DNA of 64,000 bases, taken from Persicobacter psychrovividus. GTDB taxonomy: Bacteria > Bacteroidota > Bacteroidia > Cytophagales > Cyclobacteriaceae. The stretch's first letter is position 1. Every line of letters begins with the position of its first letter. The notes beneath the pieces are model-generated. The model searched no databases. It worked only from the letters and a program-made list of their open reading frames with translations, and was not told the origin of the DNA. This document shows, in pieces, positions 4,929 through 52,972 of this stretch. The translations under genes were made by a program, and so were the position numbers. The DNA lies in contig NZ_AP025292.1 of the NCBI RefSeq assembly GCF_036492425.1, positions 2,294,001 to 2,358,000 of the forward strand. The letters are read 5' to 3'.

Positions 4929-6413
4929 ATGAACGTTGACGTTTTAAATAAAATCATCGATGCCCTGCCGATGATTCTTCCGGAGTCGATTTTAGTGCTG
5001 ACGATTGTTTTTTTGACGCTGCTGAGCATCAGTCCGTGGAAAAAAAACAATGGCTGGTCTATCCTCTGTTGCTGGATTGGGGGCATCGCTTATCTGCTGG
5101 CCGCATTTTATCAGCTGGGAGAATCCTTTAATATCGGTTTCTCAGGGATGATTTCACTGAATGATTTTGCTATTTATGGTAAGCTGCTCATTGGTGGTTT
5201 GTACCTGTGTGTGCTGCACCTGAGTGCCATTCACGTCACGGGGCATAACAACCAACACCACGAATACTGGATCCTGACGGTCGCCATTTTACTCGGCGGC
5301 TCTACCCTGCTGATGTCAGAGAGCTTATTGATGATCTACCTTGCGGTAGAGTTGCTTTCCTTCTCTGCCTATGGCCTGACGGCCTTCAATCAGCATAAAG
5401 AGGGCCAACAATCAGCGATTAAGTACTTGCTTTTTGGTGCTGTGGCCTCCGCCATGACCGTCTATGGGATGTCGCTGTTATATGGACTGACAGGCACACT
5501 CAGCCTTTCCAACCCGCAGTTTTGGTTACACCTTACCGATGTGCCAACACCCATTTTGGCATTTGCCGTTTTCCTGGCCACCTGTGGACTGTTATTTAAA
5601 ATTACAGCAGTACCCTTGCACCCCTGGGTGGATGATGTGTACCAGCATGCACCAACACCCGTGGCGGCATTTTTCAGTACTTTGCCAAAAATTGCGGTGT
5701 TCTTTTGTCTGGTAAATCTTGTGCAGATTCTGCAACCTTTCAATGCACTGAATAGCCCTTCTTTAACCTTGCTGATTGGCATTGTGGCGATCATGTCCAT
5801 GACCATCGGAAACTTGCTGGCGTTGTGGCAGAAAGATGTCAAAAGAATGCTGGCTTATTCGTCCGTTTCGCACGCAGGATTCCTGCTCGCCATTGCGGCA
5901 ATTCCCAACAAAGCAGCCTGGGATGCTGGCCTGTTTTATGTTGTGGTATATGGGATCATGAATTTAGCCGCCTTTGGAATGGTACAATATTTTGAAACCC
6001 GAAAGCTTGCGGTTACTTATGCGGACTTCAATGGATTGGGAAAAAAATTACCCTTGTGGGGGATAGGGCTGGTTATCGTAATGATTTCACTGACTGGCTT
6101 GCCACCAACAGCTGGCTTCAATGCCAAATTGATGGTCTTTATTGCTTTTTGGGAGCAGTTTGAAAGGTCGGGGATGAATATCTATCTGTACCTGCTGATT
6201 GCGGGTGTGCTGAACACCGTCATTGCGCTGTTCTATTACATTAAGCTGCCCTATCACTTCTATTTCCAAAAACAACTGCCAGAAGATGATGACTATGAGG
6301 AACGACGACTGAACGTCATCACTACTCCGCTGCGCTGGTCCTACGGGATCATCACCATTATCCTCATCATACCGCTATTGGTCTTGTTTTTTGCCCCGCA
6401 AATTATCTTATAA
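4929..6413 (+). CDS. nuoN: NADH-quinone oxidoreductase subunit N
   Basis: 494 residues, the second antiporter-like membrane subunit of complex I encoded here; length is normal for NuoN. It shows the family pattern of about 14 helices with YLAVELLSFSAYGLTAF (conserved Glu), KITAVPLHPWVDDVYQHAP (NuoN counterpart of the HTWLPDAH segment) and DVKRMLAYSSVSHAGF. It starts 10 bases after nuoM, so the pair is co-transcribed, and it ends at a strong hairpin shared with the convergent gcvT. Confidence 0.96.
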   Translation: MNVDVLNKIIDALPMILPESILVLTIVFLTLLSISPWKKNNGWSILCCWIGGIAYLLAAFYQLGESFNIGFSGMISLNDFAIYGKLLIGGLYLCVLHLSAIHVTGHNNQHHEYWILTVAILLGGSTLLMSESLLMIYLAVELLSFSAYGLTAFNQHKEGQQSAIKYLLFGAVASAMTVYGMSLLYGLTGTLSLSNPQFWLHLTDVPTPILAFAVFLATCGLLFKITAVPLHPWVDDVYQHAPTPVAAFFSTLPKIAVFFCLVNLVQILQPFNALNSPSLTLLIGIVAIMSMTIGNLLALWQKDVKRMLAYSSVSHAGFLLAIAAIPNKAAWDAGLFYVVVYGIMNLAAFGMVQYFETRKLAVTYADFNGLGKKLPLWGIGLVIVMISLTGLPPTAGFNAKLMVFIAFWEQFERSGMNIYLYLLIAGVLNTVIALFYYIKLPYHFYFQKQLPEDDDYEERRLNVITTPLRWSYGIITIILIIPLLVLFFAPQIIL

Positions 6414-48262: not shown

Positions 48263-48904
48263 ATGAAAAAGACCTTTATTCAACTATTTTTAGCGCTGGG
48301 GATTCTTTCTGCCTGTAACAGCAACAACGATAAACCATTGCCCATCCTCGGGCCGCGGACACCAGTGGAAACTACGGTAGATGGCAAGCTTAGCCAGGAT
48401 ACCGTTTATCACAAAATTGGATCATTTTCCTTCCTCAACCAAGATTCAGTAACCGTCAGTAATGCAGACTATGACGGCAAAGTATATGTCGCGGATTTCT
48501 TCTTCACCACCTGCCCGACCATCTGCCCAATCATGAAAACACAGATGATTCGGGTTTACGAACATTTCAAAGACAACGATCAGGTAAAAATCCTGTCGCA
48601 CTCCATCGACCCTGACCACGATAATGTAGCCGTTTTGCACAAATTTGCAAATCAGCTCGGGGTACAGGCACCAAAGTGGAATTTTGTTACTGGTGAGAAG
48701 CAAGATATCTATCGTGTTGGTCAGGAAAGTTATATGGTCAGTGCACTTGAAGACCCTGAAGCTCCAGGCGGGTTTATTCACAGTGGTGCATTCATCCTCG
48801 TCGATCAGCAAGGGCACATCCGAGGATTATATGATGGCACCAAAGAGGATCAGGTTGACCGACTCATCAACGACATCCCCAAACTGCTAAAATCGAAACC
48901 GTAG
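48263..48904 (+). CDS. SCO1/SenC family copper chaperone lipoprotein
   Basis: 213 residues. Lipoprotein signal with Cys18 (LGILSACNS). The thioredoxin-like domain carries the copper-binding set Cys84-x3-Cys88 (TTCPTICP) and His173 (FIHSGAF), all conserved. SCO proteins deliver copper to the CuA site of cytochrome c oxidase and may act in thiol redox at the periplasmic face. No oxidase genes are adjacent. Confidence 0.94.
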   Translation: MKKTFIQLFLALGILSACNSNNDKPLPILGPRTPVETTVDGKLSQDTVYHKIGSFSFLNQDSVTVSNADYDGKVYVADFFFTTCPTICPIMKTQMIRVYEHFKDNDQVKILSHSIDPDHDNVAVLHKFANQLGVQAPKWNFVTGEKQDIYRVGQESYMVSALEDPEAPGGFIHSGAFILVDQQGHIRGLYDGTKEDQVDRLINDIPKLLKSKP

Positions 48905-49209: not shown

Positions 49210-49929
49210 ATGAAAACGACAATACACAAAGCAACAGAAAGAGGACATGCAAATCATGGGTGGCTCAATGCTCACCACAGCTTCAGCTTCGGCCAATGGT
49301 ACGATCCAAAAAAAGTGCATTTTGGCGCACTCAGAGTCTTAAATGATGATATCATTGCTCCAGGCATGGGCTTTGGCACGCACCCTCATGATAATATGGA
49401 GATTGTAACCATTCCGATGGAAGGGGAACTCAAGCACCGCGACAGCACAGGCAGAGAGGAAGTTATTCATGAAGGAGAAGTACAAATTATGTCTGCGGGC
49501 TCAGGGATTCAACATTCTGAATTTAACCCGAACAAAGATCAGCACACGAACCTTTTACAAATCTGGGTGATTCCCGAAAAACGCAATATAGAACCTCGCT
49601 ACGATCAAAAAATATTTGCGCAGGAAGGCCGACAGAATCAATGGCAAACAGTAGTAAGCCCTTCGGACGAAAATGCCCTTTGGATCAATCAGCAAGCAAC
49701 CTTCGCGATCTCCGAACTGGAAGCGGGAAAAGCGGTGGATTACCACCTGACAAAGCCTGAACACGGAATTTATCTGTTCGTAATGGAAGGAGAAATTTCG
49801 ATGGGCAAAGATCTTACGCTCGGCAAACGGGATGCCGTAGGTATTGAAGCAAGCGAGCAAGTACAAATCACTGCGACGCAAAACAGTAAAGTCCTGCTGA
49901 TCGAAATCCCGATGCTTGAATTGCACTAA
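49210..49929 (+). CDS. Pirin family protein
   Basis: 239 residues, a bicupin. The N-terminal metal site has His58 and His60 (FGTHPHDNMEIVTI), His102 and Glu104 (GIQHSEFN), the same spacing as human pirin and E. coli YhhW. The second cupin (about 140-239) has lost its ligands, as usual. Pirin-like enzymes act as quercetin 2,3-dioxygenases in vitro or as redox sensors; the biological role here is not known. Confidence 0.94.
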   Translation: MKTTIHKATERGHANHGWLNAHHSFSFGQWYDPKKVHFGALRVLNDDIIAPGMGFGTHPHDNMEIVTIPMEGELKHRDSTGREEVIHEGEVQIMSAGSGIQHSEFNPNKDQHTNLLQIWVIPEKRNIEPRYDQKIFAQEGRQNQWQTVVSPSDENALWINQQATFAISELEAGKAVDYHLTKPEHGIYLFVMEGEISMGKDLTLGKRDAVGIEASEQVQITATQNSKVLLIEIPMLELH

Positions 49930-49997: not shown

Positions 49998-50041
49998 TTT
50001 GCGCGGGCGAATAATTTGTTCATTTTTGCAATTATATTGCA
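49998..50041 (+). promoter_or_regulatory. TonB-receptor promoter with overlapping TGCAA-N5-TTGCA operator (site 1)
   Basis: TTTG (49998-50001), 19 bases, CATTTTTG (50021-50028; one mismatch to TAnnTTTG). The 15-base palindrome TGCAATTATATTGCA (50027-50041) begins at the end of the -7 box and covers the predicted start near 50035. It resembles the 7-1-7 layout of Fur-family boxes (6 of 7 symmetric pairs). The same site occurs twice more downstream. Confidence 0.6.
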
Positions 50042-50047
50042 TAAACA

Positions 50048-52402
50048 ATGAAACAACTTTTACTGCTTTTCAGCCTATTTCTTTCCCATCAAATCTTCGC
50101 CCAGCATCATGCGATCAAGGGGCAGGTATTGGATCATGACACCAAAACCCCCTTAATTGGTGTGGTGGTGTACATCAATGACGGACAACTCAACACCCTC
50201 ACCGATCTCAACGGCAGATACAATTTCCCCGAAGTTCCTGACGGTCACCATACCGTATTTGCCAGTTATCTGGGTTATTTGCCCAGCCGAAAGAACATCA
50301 ACCTGCACCAAAATCACCAGAAATGTAATTTTATGCTTGAGCCTGAAATCAGGGAACTTGAGCAGGTGATCATCAATGCCGAAGAAATAGAAAGACGCCG
50401 AAAGCAAAGCCAGACCATCACGGAAATCAGTGAGGAGGAACTGGAAAAACAACGGGGAAGCACCTTTGTGGATGCCCTTACCAAGCAGGCGGGAATCAAC
50501 AGCCTGAGCACTGGCGTGGGGATCAGTAAACCTGTAATTCGTGGGATGTTCGGCAATCGGGTGATTGTCAATGATGGTGGCGTGAAGCAGGAAAGTCAGC
50601 AGTGGGGTTCCGACCATGGCCTGCCCATTGATAATTACAACAGCAACAGTGTCGAGATTATCAAAGGCCCAGCGAGTTTGCTTTATGGCTCGGACGGTAT
50701 CGGTGGTGTGGTTAAAATATCACTGGCCAAGGTCCCCACCCTCAACAGTTTTCACGGGCAGTTCACCACCAACTATCAATCAAATAATGATGCCATAGGT
50801 TCAGGACTGAAAATCAGTGGAAATCATCACGGATATTACTTCATTGCCGAGGGTTCTTACACCTCTTTCAATAACTACCGTGTCCCTGCTGACCAGTTTG
50901 AATACCTGGATTTTATCTTCCCCATTAAAGAGCAGACGCTCGTTAATACCAATGGCCACGACCAATCGGTGGGCTTGCAAGTAGGAACGGCAAAGAAATG
51001 GGGCCGCCTGAACCTTGCGGTTTCCGATTTCCAGCAGACCGTCGGGCTTTTTCCTGGTGCGGTAGGCACTCCTTCTTTTGGCTGGCTCGATGATTTCCCG
51101 ATTTCCAGCAGGTGGCCAGAATTACCCATGCAGGTGAATCGGCACCAAAAAGCCATTTTCACCGCTGACCTCAAACTGAATGATGACTGGCTGAAAATCA
51201 CCCTGGGGTTGCAGCAAAATAACCGACAGGAACGCTCCCGACCAGAAGCACACCCTGCCGACCACCCAGAATACAGATCCCCTGGCGATGTGGCGCATGG
51301 GCTTAACCTGCGCAACTATTCCGCAGAAGCACTCTATAACCATCAGCGGGAGGGCTTCAACTGGAGTATTGGAATGGGCGGAAACTTTCAGCAACACCAC
51401 TTCGATGGTTTTGAATTTTTACTGCCCAACTATATCAATACCAGTGTTTATGCCACCACTTTTTTTCAGAAAGACCTGAATGAAAAATGGAGCCTGAGCG
51501 GTGGCCTTCGTTATGACCTGTTCGCTTATCAGGTGGAGCAATTTAATGACAGCAGTCGATACAGCCCAGGGCAAAACAGTGGTTACTGGATCAACAGAAG
51601 TCCACACATTGACCGTACCGAAGGCAATTGGTCGGGTGCCATAGGACTAAGTTACCGCCCCAGCGAACAATGGACCGCAAAAGTCAATTTTGGCAAAACG
51701 TTCCGTATGCCAACAGTGGCCGAACTGACCATGAACGGGGTGCATCATGGCACTTTCAGGCATGAGCAAGGCGATGCAAGCCTACAGGAAGAACGTGGTT
51801 ATCAGATTGACCTCGGGCTCGCTTTCAGTACTGAGCAGTGGCATGTTGAGCTGAGTCCATTTTTCAACTATTTTGAAAATTATATCTTTCTCGGGCCCAG
51901 TGGACGGTTCTCGCCCCTACCCGATGCCGGACAAATTTACGACTATAAAGAGGCTGAAGCCATTCATGCTGGAGCGGAGTTTTCGGTGAACTATCAGCCA
52001 ACCAACTACCTCAGTTTCAGCAATGCTTTTGAGTACCTTTACAACCTGAACCTGGACACCAACCTGCCGCTGCCTTTTACGCCACCAGCGTCCAATTATG
52101 TGGAATTCAGTTACCATTGGAGGCACCGATCGCAGTTTGAAGACCTGTACATTGGGGCGGGACACCGTGCGACGGCTGCGCAGAACAGGGTAGACAGAAA
52201 TGAACGTACAACACCAGGTTACCAGCTCATTAACCTGCACGCTGGCATGAAAATCTGTATGCCTCATGTACAGTATCATATTATGCTGAAAGTCGATAAT
52301 CTGACCAATCAGACCTATATGAATCATTTGAGCAGATACCGTTTGCTGAACCTGCCAGAGCAGGGGCGAAATATCAGCCTGACCGTCAAGATGAATTTTT
52401 AA
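50048..52402 (+). CDS. TonB-dependent receptor, ZnuD-like, probable metal uptake
   Basis: 784 residues. Signal peptide ends LSHQIFAQ (19). A CarboxypepD_reg domain (about 22-105; GQVLDHDTKTPLIGVVVYI) precedes the plug (about 120-235), which has VIRGMFGNRVIVNDGG, QQWGSDHGLPIDNYN and VEIIKGPASLLYGSDGIGG. These plug motifs are those of the ZnuD-type zinc/metal receptors. The 22-strand barrel ends LTVKMNF. Histidine-rich stretches (FQQHHFDGF, GVHHGTFRHEQG) fit metal handling. The His-rich DUF4625 lipoprotein follows 84 bases later with its own promoter and the same operator. Zinc is the best guess; copper or nickel is not excluded. Confidence 0.9.
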   Translation: MKQLLLLFSLFLSHQIFAQHHAIKGQVLDHDTKTPLIGVVVYINDGQLNTLTDLNGRYNFPEVPDGHHTVFASYLGYLPSRKNINLHQNHQKCNFMLEPEIRELEQVIINAEEIERRRKQSQTITEISEEELEKQRGSTFVDALTKQAGINSLSTGVGISKPVIRGMFGNRVIVNDGGVKQESQQWGSDHGLPIDNYNSNSVEIIKGPASLLYGSDGIGGVVKISLAKVPTLNSFHGQFTTNYQSNNDAIGSGLKISGNHHGYYFIAEGSYTSFNNYRVPADQFEYLDFIFPIKEQTLVNTNGHDQSVGLQVGTAKKWGRLNLAVSDFQQTVGLFPGAVGTPSFGWLDDFPISSRWPELPMQVNRHQKAIFTADLKLNDDWLKITLGLQQNNRQERSRPEAHPADHPEYRSPGDVAHGLNLRNYSAEALYNHQREGFNWSIGMGGNFQQHHFDGFEFLLPNYINTSVYATTFFQKDLNEKWSLSGGLRYDLFAYQVEQFNDSSRYSPGQNSGYWINRSPHIDRTEGNWSGAIGLSYRPSEQWTAKVNFGKTFRMPTVAELTMNGVHHGTFRHEQGDASLQEERGYQIDLGLAFSTEQWHVELSPFFNYFENYIFLGPSGRFSPLPDAGQIYDYKEAEAIHAGAEFSVNYQPTNYLSFSNAFEYLYNLNLDTNLPLPFTPPASNYVEFSYHWRHRSQFEDLYIGAGHRATAAQNRVDRNERTTPGYQLINLHAGMKICMPHVQYHIMLKVDNLTNQTYMNHLSRYRLLNLPEQGRNISLTVKMNF

Positions 52403-52417
52403 TGCAACTTTATTGCA
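52403..52417. promoter_or_regulatory. TGCAA-N5-TTGCA operator, site 2
   Basis: TGCAACTTTATTGCA, starting directly after the receptor stop codon and 70 bases before the DUF4625 ATG. Same ends and spacing as sites 1 and 3. Confidence 0.6.
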
Positions 52418-52441
52418 AAAAGATTGCTTCATTCACGAAGA

Positions 52442-52456
52442 TGCAATAAGTTTGCA
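52442..52456. promoter_or_regulatory. TGCAA-N5-TTGCA operator, site 3, covering a -7 box
   Basis: TGCAATAAGTTTGCA. The exact -7 consensus TAAGTTTG (52447-52454) lies inside the palindrome, so a bound repressor would block the promoter of the DUF4625 gene. A partial -33 (ATTG, 52423-52426) is 20 bases upstream. Predicted start near 52461. Confidence 0.62.
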
Positions 52457-52486: not shown

Positions 52487-52972
52487 ATGAAGAAATTAAG
52501 CTTATGGGCATTGGCCTGCCTGATCTTTTGTGCTTGTAGCAGTAACTCAGAAAATGAATTACAGGCACCAACAGTAAAAATCATTCAGCTGGCGAATGAA
52601 ACCGAAGAGCACGACGGTCATGAAATGGCATTGGTAGAAGCTGGAGAAGAGCTCTATTTGAATGCAGCACTGAATGCCGAAAATGGTATTAAGAGTTATA
52701 AAATTGACATCCACTTTGGCGAAGGACATGACCATGACCACCGTGTGAAATCAACAGGTAAAGAGTGGCAATACGACCAAACTGTTGTAGTAGACGGAAA
52801 TCCTAAAACGCTTTCTATTGATGAGAACATTGTAACCGTACCTGAAATGATCGACGGTGAAGAAATTGCTGAAGGTAAATACCACTTCGCTATTTATGTG
52901 ATCGATCAACTGGGTAATGAAGATAAAACATTCCAGGATTTACTGATCCACCATCACGATCACGACCATTAA
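52487..52972 (+). CDS. DUF4625 lipoprotein, histidine-rich
   Basis: 161 residues. Lipoprotein signal with Cys17 (LIFCACSSN). The single DUF4625 domain is an Ig-like beta sandwich. Histidines are concentrated in three places: EEHDGHEM (about 40), HFGEGHDHDHRV (about 83-94) and the very end, HHHDHDH. Such clusters fit binding of zinc, copper or nickel at the cell surface or periplasm. Together with the receptor upstream and the shared operators, a metal-scavenging role is likely. It ends at a strong terminator. Confidence 0.88.
   Translation: MKKLSLWALACLIFCACSSNSENELQAPTVKIIQLANETEEHDGHEMALVEAGEELYLNAALNAENGIKSYKIDIHFGEGHDHDHRVKSTGKEWQYDQTVVVDGNPKTLSIDENIVTVPEMIDGEEIAEGKYHFAIYVIDQLGNEDKTFQDLLIHHHDHDH

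Follow-up and report, generated by a model that had tools for sequence, protein, structure and literature searches.

What acts on a palindrome that recurs three times around a single receptor gene? The question is raised by a stretch of 64,000 nt from the genome of Persicobacter psychrovividus (G000:C1:2294001-2358000; referred to here as the window), in which the word TGCAA-N5-TTGCA, hereafter the box, frames the gene of a TonB-dependent receptor (50048..52402, + strand) and then leads into the gene of a His-rich lipoprotein of family DUF4625 (52487..52972, + strand). A preliminary description of the locus took the boxes to be repressor operators of the Fur-family form and the genes to be a metal regulon, a view that comparison with related genomes upholds, insofar as sequences can. 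I will argue that the boxes are very probably the operators of a Zur-type repressor, a zinc sensor belonging to the Fur family. The argument rests on location and comparison, because the exact word is barely above chance in this genome as a whole.

Box 1 (TGCAATTATATTGCA) occupies 50027..50041, box 2 (TGCAACTTTATTGCA) 52403..52417, immediately 3' of the stop codon of the receptor gene, and box 3 (TGCAATAAGTTTGCA) 52442..52456; no strand is assigned to any of them. These are the three sites reported earlier, and their number is unusual: in 100 shuffles of the window the exact word occurred 0.28 times on average and twice at most, so that no shuffle reached three. A possible box 4 (TGCAAAAAGATTGCT, 52414..52428, also without strand) departs from the word at one position. 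It is without statistical weight, since the window contains four words within one mismatch, fewer than the shuffle mean of 5.61. What speaks for it is confined to its place and its retention, with one central base altered, in the near-identical locus of an uncultured Persicobacter (L014); at the corresponding place in Persicobacter CCB-QB2 (L015) there is no word within two mismatches.

The boxes lie on sequences that resemble promoters. A passage of PMC7366714 describes the primary Bacteroides promoter by two elements, TTTG around -33 and TAnnTTTG at -7. By this consensus the receptor gene has a candidate -33 element, TTTG, at 49998..50001 (+ strand) and, 19 bases 3' of it, a -7-like element, CATTTTTG, at 50021..50028 (+ strand), which has one mismatch to TAnnTTTG and overlaps with its final two bases the beginning of box 1. 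The placement of box 1 over the -7 and start region, noticed previously, is here an overlap of two bases with an inexact element. The -7 element ascribed to the DUF4625 gene, TAAGTTTG, is exact; it lies at 52447..52454 (+ strand), within box 3 and 20 bases 3' of a TTG, and the candidate -33 TTG of this promoter (52424-52426) falls in the right arm of box 4. Judging by these positions, a repressor bound to the boxes of the window would cover the promoter.

The same arrangement is found in close relatives. L014 encodes the receptor at 100% identity. In L015, whose receptor is 66% identical, exact boxes stand at 5982, 8369 and 8408, the places of boxes 1, 2 and 3, the second and third being separated by 39 bp as in the window, and TATGTTTG occupies the position matching TAAGTTTG, likewise 20 bases 3' of a TTG. 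The arms of the boxes are kept within sequence that aligns between the window and L015 at 59 of 90 identical positions between the receptor and DUF4625 genes and, 5' of the receptor gene, at 54 of 105. All three words are kept in another genome of the species (G195), and one of the same genus (G194) has the three of L015. Exact boxes accompany five of 13 receptor-relative loci (L014-L017 and L025). In L016, from the Saprospiraceae, a gene of the Fur family lies immediately 5' of the receptor gene, and a one-mismatch box at its start faces a divergent DUF4625 gene.

Thirty of the Zur-type loci matched by the Fur-family protein of L016, together 99,018 bp, contain the exact arms 11 times with a gap of five bases, never with gaps of 0-4, 6-8 or 10, and once each with gaps of 9, 11 and 12. 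Ten of the 11 words stand at the start of zur or a short distance 5' of it, in eight of the 30 loci; with one mismatch allowed, ten loci have a box 5' of zur. In 30 DUF4625 loci, that of the window included, a gap of five yields 14 exact words, in nine loci, and each of the remaining gaps between 0 and 12 yields none or one. When all 1024 five-base half-sites are compared at this gap in the 60 loci, TGCAA ranks second by count (25, after TTTTT with 29) and first by the number of loci in which it is found (18, followed by TTTTT with 13).

The same association appears when whole genomes are compared. With the Fur-family protein of L016 as the query, matches are found in 142 of the 194 genomes of the order; L013, a protein of the present genome, matches at 34% identity. 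As a control for spacing I widened the centre between the arms by one base, because the reversed pattern contains CpG and would be an unfair control. Occurrences of TGCAAYNNNRTTGCA outnumber those of the control by 594 to 361 in the 142 genomes with a Zur-type match and are outnumbered, 57 to 136, in the 52 without one (p=2e-7). With two small-genome families removed, the counts in the remaining 24 Zur-less genomes are 47 and 88 (p=3e-4). Taken together, the 194 genomes show a modest excess, 651 against 497. The two spacings also differ in where their sites lie. With true spacing, 12 of 32 sites in the order sample are inside open reading frames (ORFs) and 19 are upstream of genes, and the corresponding figures for the phylum sample are 10 and 17 of 32, both samples being loci as the search returned them, unselected; of 20 control sites, 16 are inside ORFs and one is upstream of a gene. 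A further 26 sites in L087-L106 comprise three inside ORFs and 21 upstream, but these loci were chosen for their C...G forms and partly for paired boxes, before their genes were read, and are therefore not treated as an unselected sample. The strict form TGCAACNNNGTTGCA is present in 54 of the 247 genomes of the phylum sample and absent from this genome.

The genes that follow the box in relatives point to zinc. Sites in L027-L056, L087-L106 and L235-L246 precede genes of MerC-like proteins, TonB receptors, CobW/COG0523 proteins, FolE, FAD oxidoreductases, lipoproteins and zur itself, as well as genes with no evident link to zinc. Among 43 neighbour proteins from the two unselected samples, Pfam recognizes MerC in six, the TonB plug in six, Pyr_redox_2 in four, FUR in three, SCO1 in two and cobW in one. 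In one locus from another class of the phylum (L235), five exact boxes are found within 18 kb, together with zur, MerC, FolE, a pair of DUF4625-like genes, a TonB receptor gene and the last part of a ZIP gene that begins outside this stretch. In G037 the box stands at separate places 5' of MerC, receptor and FolE genes (L042/L087, L088 and L090).

MerC-like membrane proteins are found under the box, in many cases next to zur or CobW, in L042, L044, L046, L095, L221, L235 and L243 (identified by Pfam for the six of 43 neighbours, L235 and L095, otherwise by resemblance), and they are candidate zinc carriers. A family of FAD/NAD(P) oxidoreductases recurs under the box in L027, L028, L031, L092, L098, L103, L105, L238 and L245 (Pfam Pyr_redox_2 for L027 and L238, the others by resemblance). 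In addition, a gene for an LCIB-type carbonic anhydrase (L226:597-1361; Pfam E=5.5e-51) has a box 140 bases 5' of it, and a gene that is Fur-like by its sequence (L057:902-1336) lies near the DUF4625 gene that scores best in the order sample.

Which protein might bind the boxes in P. psychrovividus? A search for homologues of Fur, Zur and Nur, the check proposed in the preliminary description, finds two genes of the Fur family over the Pfam cut-off, L012 and L013. L013 encodes a protein of 137 aa (L013:1474-1887; G000:C1 near 3173579), a candidate Zur-type repressor; its top relative in the Protein Data Bank (PDB), FurB (2o03, E=2.1e-7), is a zinc regulator. All 31 Zur-type proteins compared, among them L013, have the four structural cysteines C97, C100, C133 and C136, and L012 has none of these; the filter by which the Zur loci were picked required one CxxC but removed no locus. 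From these sequences L013 is the likeliest repressor here.

Many results weigh against a zinc repressor of this kind, and the first of them concern the proteins. L013 scores 26.1 bits with the NCBIfam model of Zur (PRK11639; cut-off 167) and higher, 44.2 bits, with that of PerR (cut-off 180), and it reaches the cut-off of no curated NCBIfam model. In a tree of Fur-family proteins it is not placed firmly among the box-bearing Zurs, and its own locus has no box. The lack of a box at a Zur gene is not peculiar to this genome, since G037, with a single Zur-type match and ten words, likewise has none at its Zur-type gene. The receptor, in which Pfam finds a plug and an N-terminal CarbopepD_reg_2 domain, is below the cut-off of every curated NCBIfam model in the best 25 of 26 families: it reaches 142.8 bits with ZnuD (cut-off 950) and more, 180.6 bits, with the heme-receptor model TonB-hemin (cut-off 316.9). 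Its earlier characterization as ZnuD-like agrees with ZnuD being its top solved relative (4rdr, E=1.3e-25).

These scores might be taken to mean that L012, a Fur-like iron regulator, binds the boxes and that the receptor imports iron or heme. Solved Fur proteins are good matches to L012 (2w57, E=2e-17), and TonB-hemin is the best-scoring model for the receptor, albeit under its cut-off. The box, however, precedes Zur-type genes, and its excess tracks their presence; the linked genes are of the zinc type; and the receptor is nearer to ZnuD than to its second solved relative, the heme receptor PhuR (1.4e-8). I consider it very improbable that L012 is the regulator.

The statistics of the comparison contribute further adverse results. 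Within one mismatch, an upstream box is missing from 20 of these 30 Zur loci. When one-mismatch words are counted, the contrast between spacings is lost in the Zur loci, with eight words at a gap of five and 18 at a gap of three, and in the DUF4625 loci 22 words at a gap of five stand beside 20 at a gap of 12. The spacing control is itself not neutral, as is seen from its surplus in genomes that lack a Zur-type match, and ancestry confounds the co-occurrence, since 28 of the 52 Zur-less genomes come from two families. Eight of the 13 receptor relatives have no exact box (L018-L024 and L026, of which L023 is without its upstream side).

The genome of P. psychrovividus provides the remainder. 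In 6.15 Mb the exact word occurs 11 times, as compared to about 6.9 expected from the base composition of the window. The preliminary description regarded a frequent motif unlinked to metal genes as contrary evidence; by count, 7 of the 11 places are unlinked, but these consist of four in ORFs and three in copies of one 642-bp repeat. Three more places are those of the window, and the last, at C2:394896, ends 22 bases 5' of the ATG of a second DUF4625 gene; in the opposite direction, at a distance of 150 bases, is a sulfurtransferase gene. The repeat (L001-L003; G000:C1:119285-123583) carries TGCAAACGGTTTGCA three times at a spacing of 642 bp and is also present in three copies in G195; its longest repeated ORF, in L002, has 77 aa.

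A scan of the genome with up to one mismatch, together with the flanking genes, had been suggested as well, and it returns 55 places within one mismatch of TGCAAYNNNRTTGCA. Of the 31 loci read, only that of a ZIP gene has a clear metal link, and possibly L122; the remainder look like chance. The genome's CobW locus (L168) has no box and MerC was not found in the genome, so that the regulon here seems to be smaller than in some relatives. The ZIP zinc transporter gene (Pfam E=4.6e-18) has a one-mismatch box, TGCCACATTATTGCA (TGCAATAATGTGGCA), 27 bases 5' of its ATG, and the ZIP gene of G194 (73% identical) has a diverged copy with two mismatches, TGCCACCTTGTTGCG, at the same place, at 28 bases. 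L122:1533 (G000:C1:1817732) is TGCCACAAGGTTGCA, the TGCCAC variant as at ZIP, 91 bases 5' of another TonB receptor gene. TonB receptors are common in this phylum, and the site may therefore be due to chance. The box is thus found 5' of genes which, from their families, would serve zinc uptake: the receptor and DUF4625 genes in the window and, with one mismatch, the ZIP gene elsewhere.

The preliminary description left the metal as zinc or nickel and named a nickel-responsive (Nur) box of this form in Streptomyces. A passage of PMC3919588 indeed prints the Nur box as tTGCaa-N5-ttGCAA. The box of the window has that form in both arms and spacing, which counts against zinc, although form alone does not make the metal nickel. 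Should a Nur-type repressor sit on the boxes, the receptor and the His-rich lipoprotein would import nickel, and His-rich proteins can in general bind that metal. The neighbours of the box, however, are ZIP, cobW, MerC, FolE, ZnuD-like receptors and Zur-type genes; no nickel enzyme or transporter appears in the best 25 of the 45 families found for the 43 neighbour proteins; and the top PDB relative of L013 is a zinc regulator. A nickel regulon is very improbable, if a little less so than control by L012. Zinc is favoured, on account of the linked gene content (Zur-type, CobW/COG0523, MerC, FolE, receptor and ZIP) and of ZnuD as the best solved relative of the receptor.

It is also improbable that the boxes have nothing to do with the Fur family, and here their geometry is informative. 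Alignment of 65 distinct exact sites upstream of genes gives the motif TGCAAY-N3-RTTGCA, flanked by A/T-rich sequence; only its outer and inner bases count as evidence, because the search fixes the ten bases of the arms. (Spacing-control loci, and most loci that are duplicates or come from the same species, are excluded from this count and from those of pair spacing and promoter placement.) Of 24 pairs of neighbouring boxes, 18 are 36-40 bp apart and 13 of these 38 or 39, with the qualification that some loci were preselected for pairs and that pairs from L089, L090, L095, L102 and L104, of the chosen set L087-L106, are among the 24. At 62 unidirectional sites, TAnnTTTG begins 32 or 33 bases after the start of the box, so placing the box over -33, in 10 exact cases as compared to one for the mirror image, and in 16 as compared to four with one mismatch. 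The right-arm TTG can then act as the -33 element with 19-20 bases between. A -7 element at -6 from the box was considered as a general rule and dropped: it occurs in four cases against one when exact, and with one mismatch its orientation, 16 against 13, is no better than that of the mirror image. Only the overlap with -33 is therefore put forward as a general tendency. When sites in divergent gaps are included, which make up half of the total of 124, the exact counts against the mirror image are 17 to 8 at +32/33 and 12 to 9 at -6. A pair spacing of 36-40 bp fits boxes on -33 and -7, and the promoter would account for it if -7 is covered by the second box.

An unrelated regulator, or a stem in the transcript, with the link to zinc a by-product of neighbourhood, would have in its favour that any palindrome may fold as RNA and that operator binding is here deduced from DNA letters. 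It does not account well for the tendency of the boxes to overlap promoter-like elements and to be paired at a set distance, nor for the recurrence of the box at the separate MerC, receptor and FolE genes of G037. Of all the alternatives it is the one I find hardest to credit.

If the boxes are indeed Zur operators, then with zinc plentiful, dimers of the zinc-loaded repressor would sit on the boxes and keep RNA polymerase off. Occupation of box 1 would block the end of the -7 element of the receptor promoter and the start region; that of box 3, and perhaps box 4, would block the -7 (and the -33) of the DUF4625 promoter, and box 2 lies a short way 5' of these. When zinc became scarce the repressor would release the DNA, the receptor, the DUF4625 lipoprotein, the second DUF4625 protein and ZIP would be made, and zinc would be drawn in.

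The DUF4625 lipoprotein (161 aa; PF15418, E=3.8e-21) has a cysteine at position 17 that is invariant in an alignment of 17 sequences, and the name DUF4625 is absent from the open-licence literature searched. CCB-QB2 has a second, diverged DUF4625-like gene (L015:9053-9514) 3' of the first, where the window has a gene on the reverse strand. On the other side, 5' of the receptor gene, the window has SCO1/SenC and pirin genes (48263-48904 and 49210-49929, from Pfam), with look-alikes in L015; the two SCO1 proteins among the 43 box neighbours elsewhere are in addition to this one.

A more general proposal, which I regard as evenly balanced between true and false, is that the Bacteroidota possess a phylum-wide Zur regulon not yet described, whose box is indistinguishable from the actinobacterial Nur box and is often paired at 38-39 bp because each box shares letters with one promoter element, and that zinc enters by way of a TonB receptor, DUF4625 and inner-membrane carriers, either ZIP or MerC-like. 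Were this so, DUF4625 and this branch of MerC would gain a function, the genes of zinc starvation would become readable in many genomes of the phylum, and there would be a testable role for DUF4625 and for the MerC-like proteins beside zinc genes. No Zur box of Bacteroidota appears in the titles and abstract openings of the open-licence literature searched, where an earlier prediction may still exist beyond those parts; "Bacteroidetes" does not occur in the main text of PMC6103462, nor "Bacteroid..." in that of PMC2770081.

Three known systems invite comparison. The receptor of the window has ZnuD as its top solved relative and differs from it in lying far below the curated cut-off and in having the N-terminal CarbopepD_reg_2 domain. 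The Nur box of Streptomyces has the same arms and spacing but belongs to a different phylum, and the genes linked to the box here are of the zinc type; since a zinc-linked word has the form printed for nickel, the form of the box alone does not reveal its metal. The Zur regulons of other phyla have a Fur-family repressor, a palindromic box over the promoter, and COG0523 and TonB receptor targets. Passages of PMC6103462 describe two boxes at some Zur promoters, and passages of PMC2770081 give COG0523 proteins and back-up enzymes as Zur targets; TonB receptors are reported as targets in Caulobacter (PMC4176598). The regulon considered here would differ from these in its box, TGCAAY-N3-RTTGCA, which is unlike the E. 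coli motif quoted in a passage of PMC6103462, and in the addition of MerC-like proteins, DUF4625 lipoproteins and the family of FAD oxidoreductases.

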